A program made the translations under genes and the position numbers. Shown here in pieces: positions 42,815 through 48,960 of a stretch of 64,000 nt of DNA (position 1 is the stretch's first letter; every line of letters starts with the position of its first letter). Source of the DNA: Isosphaeraceae bacterium EP7 (lineage in GTDB: Bacteria > Planctomycetota > Planctomycetia > Isosphaerales > Isosphaeraceae). Below the pieces are notes generated by a model, which was not told the DNA's origin, made no database searches, and worked only from the letters and a program-made list of their open reading frames with translations. The DNA lies in NCBI GenBank assembly GCA_038400315.1, contig CP151667.1, positions 5,343,174 to 5,407,173 of the forward strand, in the 5' to 3' direction.

Positions 42815-43216
42815 TCAGACGTGTTCCATTGCCTCGCGGAGGTCGCGGTCGACCCCGAAGAGGCGGTCGAGATTGGACGTGCGGAAGACACCCTGCACCG
42901 TCGGGGTCATCTCGCAGAGGCGGAACTTTCCGCCTGCCCCCTCGACCCGACGTTGGAGCAGCACGAGCTTGCCCAGGAATGAGCTGCTGATCAGCTCGAC
43001 GCCTGAGAAGTCGAGGACCAGACGCACGGGCGGCCCTTCGGCGGGAATCGCCGCGTGAATCTGCTCGCCGACCTCGCGGACGATGCGCTCGTCGAAGAGC
43101 CGCGGCTCCAGGAAGCGGATGACCGTCACACCATCGAAGTCGAGGGCCGTGACTCGGGTTGTCGTCGGCATGTCGCTCAGGCTCCGGAATGGCTCGAGAA
43201 GGGGGACTTCATCCAT
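42815..43216 (-). CDS. STAS-domain protein (anti-anti-sigma factor-like), second of pair
   Basis: A 133-residue STAS domain. The start is taken as ATG 43216 because the upstream gene ends TGA directly before it (TGAATG), giving coupled translation; an internal ATG at 43171 would give a 118-residue protein that starts closer to the fold. VRLVLDFSGVELISSSFLGK contains the D-F-S and S-S-F-L-G motifs, in which a Ser is normally phosphorylated by a partner kinase. VIRFLEPRLFD and CEMTPTVQGVFRTSNLDRLF match the fold ends. Such proteins switch sigma factors or other targets. No kinase, phosphatase or sigma gene is next to it. The paired STAS genes probably act together. Confidence 0.85.
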   Translation of the reverse strand: MDEVPLLEPFRSLSDMPTTTRVTALDFDGVTVIRFLEPRLFDERIVREVGEQIHAAIPAEGPPVRLVLDFSGVELISSSFLGKLVLLQRRVEGAGGKFRLCEMTPTVQGVFRTSNLDRLFGVDRDLREAMEHV

Positions 43217-43708
43217 TCAGTCTAAAGGTTTACGGCGACCCCGACGCAGGGAGGCATTGGCGTCGCCTGCGGGTGGCTTCCGATCCGCCTGGCCCGCCGC
43301 ATCATTCAGACTGGACATAGGCGTTTGCTCCGAGTGCCCGGCCGGCTTCCCCGCCGCCTCGGCGATGGCCCGGGCCGCGGCCACGTCGGGCACGAAGGTG
43401 AAGAAGGGGTCGAGCTTGCTCACCCGGAACACTTCGAAGACGTTGGCGTCGACGTTGCAGAAGATGAGCCGGCCCCCGGCCCCTTTCGCCACTTTATGAA
43501 GTGCGAGGAACCCACCCAGCGACGAGGATCCGGCGAAGGTGATGCCGTTGAGGTCGACGACAAGAACGGGAAGGCCGCCCGACTTCAGATGCGCCTCGTA
43601 TTTGGCCCGAAGGTCTTTGACGGGGGCCGGATCGAGCCTGAGGCAATCCCAGAACTCGGCGACCATGACCCCGTGTTCGGTCGCGACCTCGACTCTCGGT
43701 TTCAGCAT
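43217..43708 (-). CDS. STAS-domain protein, first of pair
   Basis: A 163-residue protein from ATG 43708 (the frame is open back to 43930, including an ATG at 43810, so the start is not certain). The STAS core is EVATEHGVMVAEFWDCLRLD, then VLVVDLNGITFAGSSSLGGF with Ser residues at the phosphorylation position, and CNVDANVFEVFRVSKLDPFF. A ~40-residue polar tail rich in Gly, Ala, Pro and Lys follows. Only part of the motif (D-L-N rather than D-F-S) is kept, so it may respond differently from its neighbour. Its TGA touches the ATG of the second STAS gene, so both are made together. Role: probably a partner-switching regulator; target unknown. Confidence 0.82.
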   Translation of the reverse strand: MLKPRVEVATEHGVMVAEFWDCLRLDPAPVKDLRAKYEAHLKSGGLPVLVVDLNGITFAGSSSLGGFLALHKVAKGAGGRLIFCNVDANVFEVFRVSKLDPFFTFVPDVAAARAIAEAAGKPAGHSEQTPMSSLNDAAGQADRKPPAGDANASLRRGRRKPLD

Positions 43709-44177
43709 GATGGCGGTGGCGACCTCACCTGGATCGGACGTTTCAAACCGGCGTGGCCCAGCAGTCGTTCCTCGTCGCTCGACAACCGACACGTCCGCCG
43801 AACAGAACATCCTAACATCCATCGGGTGTCCAAGGAAGACAGACTCCTGCCAGGGTACGGGCACGGGCCGACGCCTCAACGCACCCGACGTCCCTCGCAT
43901 CTGACTTGCCGCATCACGGAACCGGCGCATGCCCCGGCCGCGGATGTGGTATGATCCTTCAATGGACGACTCGGGCGCGGCCCGGTCCGCCCCGCCCTCC
44001 GGCGCATCCCGAGGGCGGTTTGACGCGACACCTTGGCCCGATCAGCGGCGACCGGCAGACGCACTCGTCGGACTCCCGGAGACATCCCGAGTCCCGGGGC
44101 GTGCTCGCGGAGGCTCACACAAGCCGGGACGATCGTAGGGACGCCGATCGGCGGACCCACGGCCAGGGGAGATTCCC
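43709..44177. other. Intergenic region with an extended -10 promoter candidate
   Basis: No gene is supported over the ~470 bp between the STAS pair and the DUF1573 gene. TGGTATGAT at 43947-43955 is an extended -10 element (TATGAT with upstream TG), facing right, 220 bp before the DUF1573 gene. A very short Ser/Arg/Pro-rich frame after it looks non-coding. Confidence 0.45.
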
Positions 44178-46276: not shown

Positions 46277-46317
46277 GAACGCACGTTCTTGACGTGTTCC
46301 TTCGTTCAGAATAGACT
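46277..46317 (+). promoter_or_regulatory. LexA-like box abutting a sigma-70-type promoter
   Basis: GAACGCACGTTC (46277-46288) is the palindrome GAAC-N4-GTTC known for Gram-positive-type LexA/DinR operators. TTGACG (46289-46294) and TAGACT (46312-46317) are 17 bases apart, a good -35/-10 pair. The palindrome ends where the -35 begins, so a bound repressor would block polymerase. The expected start is at or next to the ATG at 46325, so the mRNA would have almost no leader. About one GAAC-N4-GTTC is expected by chance in 64 kb, so its location is the main evidence. Confidence 0.6.
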
Positions 46318-46324
46318 CCCGTCC

Positions 46325-47554
46325 ATGAGCGCAAACCCGCAAGCCGTTGGACACCTGGATGCCGACTGCTTCTACGTGTCGGCAGAGCGGGTTCGCGACG
46401 GCTTCCTGAAGGAGAAGGCGGTGGGGGTGCTGGGCAACCAGGGTGCGTGCGTCATCGCCAAGAGCTACGAGATGAAGGCGGCGGGGGTGAAAACTGGCGA
46501 GCCGATCTGGGAGGCGCTGGTGAAGTGCCCCGAGGGGATTTACGTCAAGCGCGACTTCCGCTGGTACGAGGTGCTCAGCCGCCTGATGCTCGACGTCATG
46601 CGCGAGTTCTCGCCCCGGGTCGAGTACTACTCGATTGACGAGTTCTTCTTCCAGGCGGTCCCCCTGCCTGGCAAGACGCTGCAGGAGACGGCCGTCGTGA
46701 TCCGCGACCGGATTAACGAGCAGATCGGCGTGCCGGTGTCGGTGGGCATCGCGCGATCGAGGACGCTGGCCAAGCTGATCTCCGACACAGTCAAGCCGTT
46801 CGGCGCCATCGCGACCCTGGAGCGCGAGGCGGAGGAGGAGCTGCTGGCGGAGAACCCGGTCACCGAGATCACCGGCATCGCGGGTCGCCGCGCCGCACGG
46901 CTGGGGCACTGGGGCATCCGCACCTGCCTGGACCTGGCGCGGGCCGACCGGACTTTGATCCGCGAACTGCTGACGGCCTCGGGCGAGGCGCTCTGGTGGG
47001 AGCTGAACGGCGACCCGGTACGGCCGATCCTGCCGCAACGCCCCCGCCACAAGGCGCTGTCGCGTGGGGGAAGCTTCGGCGAGGCGACCGATGACCCGGT
47101 GGTGCTCTATGCCTGGCTGGTGCGTAACACTGAGCGGCTGATCGAGGAGCTGCATTACCACGGAGTCATCGCCGGCCGCCTGTCGGTCTGGGTGTCGTAC
47201 AAGGACGGGACGTCCGGGCTGGGCCAGGCGAATCTGGCGCTGCCGACGGACCGCTTCGACCTGCTGCTGGACGCCGCGCGCCCCTGCCTGCGCAAGGCCT
47301 GGCGGCCCCGGGCCCGCGCCGAGCGGATGCAGCTGATCGCCGAGCGGCTGGGCCCCCGCGACGGCGCCCCGCTGGGGCTGTTCGATCCCCCTTCGGTGCA
47401 GGCCGAGGTACTGGCCCGCGTGAAGCGCGAGATCAACAGTCACCATGGCCGATTCCTCGTCCGCAGCGCCGCCACGCTACCGCTGGCCCCGATCTACGGA
47501 GACTCGGCCAACGGCTATGACATCTGCGACATTCGCGGCAAGAGTTGCTTCTGA
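46325..47554 (+). CDS. Y-family DNA polymerase (UmuC/DinB-like)
   Basis: A 409-residue translesion polymerase. ATG 46325 is the start because it follows the promoter at once and AVGHLDADCFYVSAERVRDG is the conserved first strand, with catalytic Asp12. YSIDEFFF near residue 104 provides the second S-x-D-E acidic pair. SVGIARSRTLAKLISDTVKP is the palm/fingers motif, ITGIAGRRAARLGHWGIRTC the helix-hairpin-helix part. The little-finger domain follows, with APLGLFDPP near residue 350 as a possible clamp-binding motif like UmuC QLNLF. There is no SD before the ATG, as fits a leaderless transcript. It copies damaged DNA with low fidelity. The next gene encodes an SRAP-like protein. Confidence 0.9.
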   Translation: MSANPQAVGHLDADCFYVSAERVRDGFLKEKAVGVLGNQGACVIAKSYEMKAAGVKTGEPIWEALVKCPEGIYVKRDFRWYEVLSRLMLDVMREFSPRVEYYSIDEFFFQAVPLPGKTLQETAVVIRDRINEQIGVPVSVGIARSRTLAKLISDTVKPFGAIATLEREAEEELLAENPVTEITGIAGRRAARLGHWGIRTCLDLARADRTLIRELLTASGEALWWELNGDPVRPILPQRPRHKALSRGGSFGEATDDPVVLYAWLVRNTERLIEELHYHGVIAGRLSVWVSYKDGTSGLGQANLALPTDRFDLLLDAARPCLRKAWRPRARAERMQLIAERLGPRDGAPLGLFDPPSVQAEVLARVKREINSHHGRFLVRSAATLPLAPIYGDSANGYDICDIRGKSCF

Positions 47555-47632
47555 ATCCGACTCGGTCTCGCGTGCTCAGGTTCTCGGTTGCAGCAAGGGG
47601 ACGGCCGGAGGGCTTGGGCCAGACTCAAACCG

Positions 47633-48100
47633 ATGTGCGTAGGCGTGTCTCTAGCATGGAGCGAATTGCCCAGGGATCTGATCGGGCGACACGGCCTAGA
47701 GCGCCGCGTCCACGACCGCGGAGGCGAGCCGGAGATCCGCTTTCATTATCGCGACCGGATCCCCCGCATCCCGGTCTGGCGAGACGGCCGGCTGCAAGTG
47801 GTGCGCTGGGGCAACGGCCGGGGCCAGAGCCGGGCTCTGCCGCGGACGGGCTGGACCTGGCTGTCGACGATCGAGGAGGGGGGCTGGCGCAACTCAGGCG
47901 CGGTGCCGGTCGACATCCCGGCGTCGCTGGCCATGGAGCGCGGGGTCTGGTATCGCGTCCGCCAGGGGGTGCGCGGGCTGCTGGTGCCGGATGAGCGCGG
48001 CTTCGCGGTGGCCTATGTCATCTGCGAGCCGGCGAGCCACTACTACCAGGTGATGACCCGATCCGACCGCATGCCCGTCCTGATCCAGGAGCAGATCTGA
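47633..48100 (+). CDS. Diverged SRAP-like (SOS response-associated) protein
   Basis: A 155-residue protein from ATG 47633, which makes the second residue Cys (MCVGVSLAWSELP); SRAP proteins (YedK/HMCES) use Cys2 after Met removal to cross-link abasic sites. Later blocks run in the same order as in SRAP: RDRIPRIPVWRDGRLQVVRW for the R-W-G strand, RGLLVPDERG, and YYQVMTRSDRMPVLI for the H-x-R-M-P-V end. However, the His is Ser here, and the Asn of NAR and Glu of GFYEW are not visible. It is therefore a distant relative, with the family called on Cys2, order and ending. It lies 78 bp after the Y-polymerase on the same strand. A 7-bp hairpin (48105-48130) follows its stop. Confidence 0.6.
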   Translation: MCVGVSLAWSELPRDLIGRHGLERRVHDRGGEPEIRFHYRDRIPRIPVWRDGRLQVVRWGNGRGQSRALPRTGWTWLSTIEEGGWRNSGAVPVDIPASLAMERGVWYRVRQGVRGLLVPDERGFAVAYVICEPASHYYQVMTRSDRMPVLIQEQI

Positions 48101-48204: not shown

Positions 48205-48960
48205 ATGCCGCCGGGACAGCCCCCCACCAAGAAGCCCGACCCCTCACGCCAGGGTCCGCCGCAGCAACCGCAGGGGCGGCCCGCGCAGGCGCCCCAGAAG
48301 CGCCCGCCCATTCTGACCCCCACGCCGCCGGTCATCGCCGCGCCCGGCGGCTCGGGAGAGCTAGGACTCGGCATCGCCGTCGCGCCCGACGCCGGCACCG
48401 GCACGGTCACCGCCCGCAAGGCGGGGGGTCTGCGCGACATGGGCCTCGTGGTCGACCCCGCCAAGGTTGGCCTCCGCGCGGCCTTGCAGCACCTGGCCAA
48501 GGCGGTGAACATCGCCTTCCAGGTCGACTACGGCGAGAACGACCTGGAGGCCGTCTATCAGGCCGCGATCGTCCGCAACGGCGAGATCCGCATCATCCAC
48601 CGCGAGTATTTCGGCTTCGGAGACACCTGGTTCAGCCAGTTCGGCCGCCTGCTCCGCTCGCTCTCGCTGTCGTTTGAAGGGCCCGACCCCGCCTCGCCCG
48701 AGGGGCAGCGGCGCTTTGCCGAGAAGGGCGCCTCGAGCATCCGCGGGCTACTCAGCGTGGTGGGCCGCAAGCTCGACCTGGTCACCGAGTACGAAGATCG
48801 CGTCCCCGCGTCGGTCGAGCAGATGTTCGACCGCCTGGAAGCCTCGGGGATCATCGTCGGCTGGAGCCGAGACGACTGGGAGATCCGGACCACCTCCATC
48901 GGACTGGATGTCCTGATCACGCCAAAGCTGACCCTAGCAGACCGCGCCGCGTCGCGCTGA
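48205..48960 (+). CDS. Hypothetical protein with Pro/Gln-rich N terminus
   Basis: A 251-residue protein from ATG 48205, with CGGAGCG nine bases upstream. The first ~55 residues are a Pro/Gln/Lys-rich, disordered-looking lead. The rest (residues ~60-250) is a mixed alpha/beta region: GLRAALQHLAKAVNIAFQVD, EIRIIHREYFGFGDTWFSQF, SIRGLLSVVGRKLDLVTEYE and RVPASVEQMFDRLEASGIIV. I do not recognise a domain. No signal peptide or membrane helix is seen. It lies 104 bp downstream of the SRAP-like gene, with a hairpin between, so it may or may not share its promoter. Spacing to cstA is 71 bp. A link to DNA repair is only inferred from place. Confidence 0.6.
   Translation: MPPGQPPTKKPDPSRQGPPQQPQGRPAQAPQKRPPILTPTPPVIAAPGGSGELGLGIAVAPDAGTGTVTARKAGGLRDMGLVVDPAKVGLRAALQHLAKAVNIAFQVDYGENDLEAVYQAAIVRNGEIRIIHREYFGFGDTWFSQFGRLLRSLSLSFEGPDPASPEGQRRFAEKGASSIRGLLSVVGRKLDLVTEYEDRVPASVEQMFDRLEASGIIVGWSRDDWEIRTTSIGLDVLITPKLTLADRAASR

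Follow-up and report, generated by a model that had tools for sequence, protein, structure and literature searches.

The SRAP genes of many bacteria have dinB, umuC and imuB genes as neighbours, and the Cys2 of the family has been called absolutely conserved (PMC3765255). The link between UmuC-like polymerases and SRAP-related proteins was already noted by a 2026 survey (PMC12926913, NAR 2026) which gives the PolY/UmuC-like plus SRAP-related module one main-text sentence, without lineage, promoter, operator or active-site analysis. The planctomycete cassette described here is probably of the kind outlined in that survey, with which it shares a UmuC-like polymerase, RecA-NT-type and clamp motifs and an SRAP-related neighbour. 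With the SRAP family (YedK, HMCES; PF02586), the product of the neighbouring gene shares the predicted fold, a Met-Cys start, PA-x4-E spacing of an acidic residue, a DRMP-like C-terminal block and the genetic link to damage polymerases (PMC3765255). Unlike that family, it has 155 residues as opposed to about 220, the C-terminal third is missing and it receives no Pfam or profile score. The cassette also resembles Pol V (UmuD'2C-RecA) and the YqjW-YqjX-RecA mutasomes, which likewise combine an SOS-controlled Y-family polymerase with a small accessory gene, but here the accessory has a predicted SRAP fold, unrelated to that of UmuD or YqjX. Comparison with the PDB identified an SRAP-fold partner, not the UmuD-like S24 partner of Pol V-type (UmuDC) mutasomes.

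LexA boxes take the form CGAAC-N4-GTTCG in B. subtilis, RGTAC-N4-GTWC in cyanobacteria and TGTTC-N4-GAACA in Verrucomicrobia. The motif found here resembles them in having half-sites 4 nt apart, with a Gram-positive/cyanobacterial right half (GTTC/GTAC) and a verrucomicrobial left half (TGTTC), and differs from them in the combination, TGTTC-N4-GTNCA. The E. coli motif is stated not to be the one used by LexA in planctomycetes (PMC3108266), and no LexA operator for this planctomycete family was described in the literature we found. Judged by that literature, what appears to be new is a planctomycete LexA-type operator, the map of kept and lost SRAP residues and the constant leaderless arrangement of an SOS gene.

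The locus and its polymerase

The window, a stretch of 64,000 nucleotides (G000:C1:5343174-5407173), was taken from a 7.2-Mb genome and compared with same-family relatives including Singulisphaera, Aquisphaera, Paludisphaera and Tautonia (45 genomes in the family set), names which point to an Isosphaeraceae-type planctomycete. By sequence comparison, the cassette is real and conserved in Isosphaeraceae relatives. Positions 46289-46327 read TTGACG-N17-TAGACT-N7-ATG and lead into a 409-aa Y-family polymerase, with a 155-aa Met-Cys ORF following 78 nt on. The coordinates assigned by a sequence-only reading of the window to an upstream box, the -35, spacer and -10, the ATG and both ORFs were all confirmed (Table 1).

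Table 1. Features of the polymerase/SRAP-like cassette (window coordinates)
Feature	Position	Strand	Remarks
GAAC-N4-GTTC box GAACGCACGTTC	46277..46288	.	Box of the sequence-only reading; unconserved; at best a weak second LexA site limited to this genome
-35 element TTGACG	46289..46294	+	TTGA[CA] kept in relatives
Predicted LexA-type operator TGTTC-CTTC-GTTCA (TGTTCCTTCGTTCA)	46295..46308	+	In promoter spacer; motif also before recA, ruvB and dnaE
-10 element TAGACT	46312..46317	+	17-nt spacer from -35
7-nt gap, -10 to ATG	46318..46324	+	Length invariant in relatives, sequence variable
Y-family (UmuC/DinB-like) DNA polymerase, 409 aa	46325..47554	+	Pfam IMS, IMS_C
SRAP-fold protein (predicted), 155 aa	47633..48100	+	Cys2; Glu102 (= YedK Glu105 by spacing); Ser144 (= YedK His160)

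The polymerase matches Pfam IMS (7e-35) and IMS_C (3e-11), and its UmuC/DinB-like label is based on several NCBIfam models, none of which scored above cut-off. Judged by its motifs, the enzyme is catalytically intact, with the Y-family motifs DAD (residue 12) and SIDE (residue 103) both unaltered. It further contains a clamp-type motif LGLF (residue 350), a RecA-NT-like motif VKREINSHHGRFLVRS (residue 366) and a conserved tail YDICDIRGKSCF (residue 398) of the pattern YDICDxRGKxCF. A longer polymerase ORF beginning at an upstream TTG (46073) was rejected, as homology begins near 46325 and the relatives start 7 nt past the -10.

The next gene downstream of the cassette (window 48205-48960) has no Pfam match, and a relative of it also lies 3' of the SRAP-like gene in two other loci (L039, L040). 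Two neighbouring minus-strand ORFs at 42815-43930 of the window resemble, by eye, STAS-type (anti-sigma antagonist) proteins.

Operator, promoter and translation start

The sequence-only reading had taken the GAAC-N4-GTTC box for a LexA site, with its placement as the main support. This motif occurs twice in the window where 1.3 occurrences are expected, which is chance level, as 39 of 100 shuffles reach two. It is absent within 300 nt upstream of the related polymerases (0/34 loci), so its placement is not kept in any of them, and it was not found upstream of recA, lexA, ruvB or dnaE in this genome. Family-wide, it precedes lexA in none of 30 genomes and recA in one of 30. Its lack of conservation across the 34 loci, together with the recA and lexA promoters, led us to reject it as the operator. 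Scored with a matrix derived from lexA and recA sites, the box reaches 10.6 bits compared with 12.7 bits for the site within the promoter, the genome's own lexA and recA sites scoring 15-19. It is spaced 19 nt from the promoter site, close to the 18 nt between the two lexA sites, and may at most be a weak second LexA site private to this genome.

Alignment of the regions upstream of the related polymerases instead revealed a strongly conserved TTGACC-TGTYC-N4-GTNCA-NAC-TATNNT within the promoter, placing a putative operator between the -35 and the -10. In the family's recA promoters, TGWYC-N4-GTACA occurs just 3' of the -10, and the lexA promoters have two sites, TGTTC-N4-GTGCG and NNNAC-N4-GTACA, at a spacing of 18 nt, which are asymmetric variants (right half GTGCG in one, left half NNNAC in the other). 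The polymerase shares its putative operator with the lexA and recA genes of its own genome, the lexA sites being variants of the motif. A matrix trained on the lexA and recA sites only placed 28 of the 35 polymerase promoters beyond the 95% level of their shuffles, 12 of these beyond 99%, with seven below the 95% threshold; among regions upstream of tandem SRAP-like genes, one of 23 did so.

In the genome itself, a regulon scan with the single pattern TGWTC-N4-GTDCA found 20 sites, against three for the reversed control. One of the 20 is that of this polymerase and three more stand right before recA (39 nt), ruvB (39 nt) and dnaE (53 nt); several of the remaining sites, which fall inside genes, are probably due to chance. 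The search for boxes before recA and lexA, by which the earlier claim of SOS control could be judged, therefore speaks against GAAC-N4-GTTC and in favour of TGTTC-N4-GTTCA: the idea of a damage-inducible, LexA-type cassette of polymerase and SRAP relative holds up, with a different operator from the one first named.

As the motif is common to lexA, recA and ruvB, LexA is the likely repressor of the polymerase promoter. Another repressor with a similar GTNC half-site motif seems very improbable to us: the lexA sites are admittedly variants and LexA binding at this promoter is a prediction, but the motif stands before the genome's own recA, ruvB and dnaE and in recA and lexA promoters throughout the family, and a lexA gene is present in 45 of 45 family genomes. 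We infer that LexA binds this promoter and that DNA damage induces it; LexA control of an error-prone polymerase in a planctomycete family is, on these grounds, very probable. The dnaE site (G000:C1 653292, L233) and the ruvB site (6320909, L249) suggest that the DNA polymerase III alpha subunit belongs to the SOS regulon.

The distance between this promoter and the start codon is also constrained. A scan found -35/-10 pairs at 29 of 35 polymerase starts in the family, and in all 29 the ATG follows exactly 7 nt past the -10; five of the six remaining starts match the same layout by eye, with a weaker -10. Only the length of the 7-nt stretch is kept, its sequence varying between CCCGTCC, TTTGTCC, GGATCGT, TGCGGCC and others. 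The layout TTGAC-N18-TANNNT-N7-ATG occurs once in the 7.2-Mb genome, at this polymerase, and is therefore not a habit of the genome. Given the usual distances from -10 to transcript start, the transcript is predicted to begin on the ATG or one base before it. The invariant spacing and unique layout strongly support the leaderless polymerase mRNA proposed by the sequence-only reading, although where the transcript actually begins is deduced from the promoter. A leader or a different layout is seen in relatives further away, which confines the predicted leaderless start to the Isosphaeraceae-type family. The locus would offer a planctomycete LexA operator open to testing and a clear example of a leaderless gene under SOS control.

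Pairing of the polymerase and SRAP-like genes

The SRAP-like gene is present in 41 of the 45 family genomes and the polymerase (E<=1e-80) in 38. Four genomes (G008, G009, G010 and G026) have neither gene, and the other three without a polymerase match are fragmented assemblies; in two of them a contig end cuts the polymerase. The usual order is polymerase followed by SRAP-like gene. In eight family genomes, some with multiple copies, the pair is divergent with 51-77 nt between the starts, a layout in which one operator region could act on both genes. All 12 full-length SRAP-like copies of a second planctomycete family likewise adjoin a polymerase. Single SRAP-like members were found in Gemmataceae and in Pirellulales, and one more, with no polymerase nearby, in a Peregrinibacteria bin. 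The two genes are far apart in three family genomes (G025, G039 and G041) and 2.7 kb apart in G017.

This distribution bears on whether the SRAP relative works with the polymerase or as an independent abasic-site shield, a small substitute for HMCES/YedK that is co-regulated with the polymerase, stays outside its complex and, through a Cys2 cross-link, guards AP sites from cleavage until repair. Consistent with such a shield, the genes are separate in three genomes and canonical SRAP was not found in 36 of the 45 family genomes, the present one having a fragment only. Against it, the polymerase and SRAP-like genes either occur together or are both missing, and lineages with a canonical SRAP retain the SRAP-like protein too. 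We regard the shield as unlikely, and the active-site residues discussed below weigh on both sides of it.

Canonical SRAP has left a single trace in this genome, a fragment with about 50 matched residues at G000:C1:2699078-2699224 (L001). In G040, several cassette copies occur on contigs C1-C4 (L052-L056, L069), on the chromosome as well as on smaller contigs and in some cases by broken canonical SRAP genes, and the cassette looks mobile there.

Fold, active site and proposed role of the 155-residue protein

Pfam and NCBIfam searches with the 155-aa protein returned no families at E<=10 or at E<=1, a profile search of the PDB with its family profile found no SRAP, and hhalign to canonical SRAPs failed globally and aligned only 10 columns locally. 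The relationship is visible by structure only. An AlphaFold2 model built from 39 natural sequences has a pLDDT of 93 and a pTM of 0.88, and Foldseek ranked SRAPs at positions 1-7, the best E being 1.8e-3 and none reaching 0.001. In a second structural alignment, all PDB matches above Z 3 were SRAPs (Z 8.8-10.5 over 128-141 residues), with 10.5 for 2f20, 9.5 for HMCES (5ko9) and 9.3 for YedK (6kbu), the first unrelated chain scoring 2.5. Going by this model, the protein has an SRAP fold, far diverged and about one third shorter than its canonical relatives. The proposal that this ORF is an SRAP relative is thereby upheld by structure, the same proposal gaining nothing from Pfam or profile scores.

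In contrast to canonical SRAPs, nearly all members replace His160 by Ser, Tyr or Asn; PRTGW apparently stands for the NAR block, and Cys2 has been lost in several lineages. Cys2 is found in the protein of the window and in 40 of 51 relatives, and is elsewhere S, A, L, F or Y or lost; residue 3 is free to vary. Mapped on a tree, Cys2 has undergone seven or more changes (well-supported branches force four of them) and His144 two. Ser144 aligns with YedK His160 in the 10-column local profile alignment, and position 144 is His in only three outlying members of the 51, which agrees with the earlier view that the catalytic His is absent. A NAR-like (Asn75/Arg77) block was not visible in the equivalent segment by sequence alignment; the equivalents of Asn75 and Arg77 are thus probably lost, as had been suspected for Asn. 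The suspicion that Glu is missing too is not supported. Glu102 lies as far from the PA motif as Glu105 does in YedK, position 102 is acidic in 49 of 51 relatives (E in 37, D in 12), and, matched by motif spacing and by strand order and secondary structure, Glu102 is most likely the catalytic acidic residue. In YedK, only Cys2 matters more than Glu105; E105D has a modest effect, H160A costs about 10-fold and N75A is mild (PMC9436759), so the residues apparently kept in the 155-aa protein are the more important ones. Loss of Cys2 was also considered as tracking the presence of canonical SRAP, which fits clade g18, but in the second family canonical SRAP also accompanies members that bear Cys2, and the explanation was dropped.

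The retention of Cys2 in 40 of 51 relatives and of E/D102 in 49 of 51 is what an abasic-site shield would call for, whereas the loss of the His160 and probably of the Asn75/Arg77 equivalents, and of Cys2 itself (a minimum of 4-7 changes by the tree) from a gene that remains next to the polymerase, argues against it. These same losses, along with the near-obligate pairing, point towards a non-covalent, purely structural UmuD'-like subunit in which all DNA chemistry has been lost and Cys2 and Glu are relics or structural; the modelling of PolY modules as RecA complexes in PMC12926913 points the same way. This subunit is possible but doubtful, as Cys2 is kept in most members despite a variable residue 3 and the acidic residue is almost invariant. 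An AlphaFold2 model of polymerase and SRAP-fold protein joined in a readthrough construct, in which the TGA was read as Trp and served only as a linker, had a pTM of 0.56 and did not support a direct binary interface (shallow, mostly unpaired alignment; RecA and DNA not included). The missing interface counts against the structural subunit and favours the independent shield.

Our preferred reading, which we hold to be moderately probable, is a LexA-controlled translesion-synthesis module made from a leaderless mRNA, with the SRAP-fold protein as a dedicated accessory factor. The fold, pairing, operator sharing, invariant 7-nt spacing and residue conservation were computed; the accessory role, DNA binding and residual chemistry we infer. 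Weighing against this reading are the seven polymerase promoters below the 95% threshold, the asymmetric lexA sites, the unsupported binary interface and the genomes in which the two genes lie apart. LexA on TGTTC-N4-GTTCA, between the -35 and the -10, would block the polymerase promoter, and DNA damage would give rise to a RecA filament, LexA self-cleavage and release of the promoter. The transcript would then start on the ATG or one base before it and the polymerase would be translated without a leader, the SRAP relative being made from the same transcript or, where the genes diverge, from the same 51-77-bp control region. As the polymerase's dedicated accessory, the protein would stand in the place held elsewhere by UmuD' or YqjX/YolD. 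Its cleft would most likely bind single-stranded or abasic template. Cys2 and the acidic residue could probably still bring about covalent capture, at a slower rate than in YedK, but this would not be what maintains the pairing, which has outlasted several losses of Cys2.

With low confidence, we extend this accessory reading to an SRAP domain serving as a UmuD-like subunit of an SOS polymerase: equipped with Cys2 and the acid and lacking His, it might reversibly tether an abasic template lesion before its own polymerase, so that one LexA-controlled complex, made from a leaderless mRNA, would both capture and bypass the lesion. The protein would be a natural SRAP variant, tied to one polymerase, in which the acid (Glu) part of the SRAP reaction is uncoupled from the His part, offering a way to ask whether SRAP proteins work with or against translesion polymerases.

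Bins named Candidatus Kuenenia stuttgartiensis (L159-L161) contain an Isosphaeraceae-like cassette with Ser2 for Cys2, and these names may be wrong. The member from the Peregrinibacteria bin (L173:5001-5450; polymerase not nearby) has 150 aa, keeps Cys2, Glu and His, and may be near the ancestral state.
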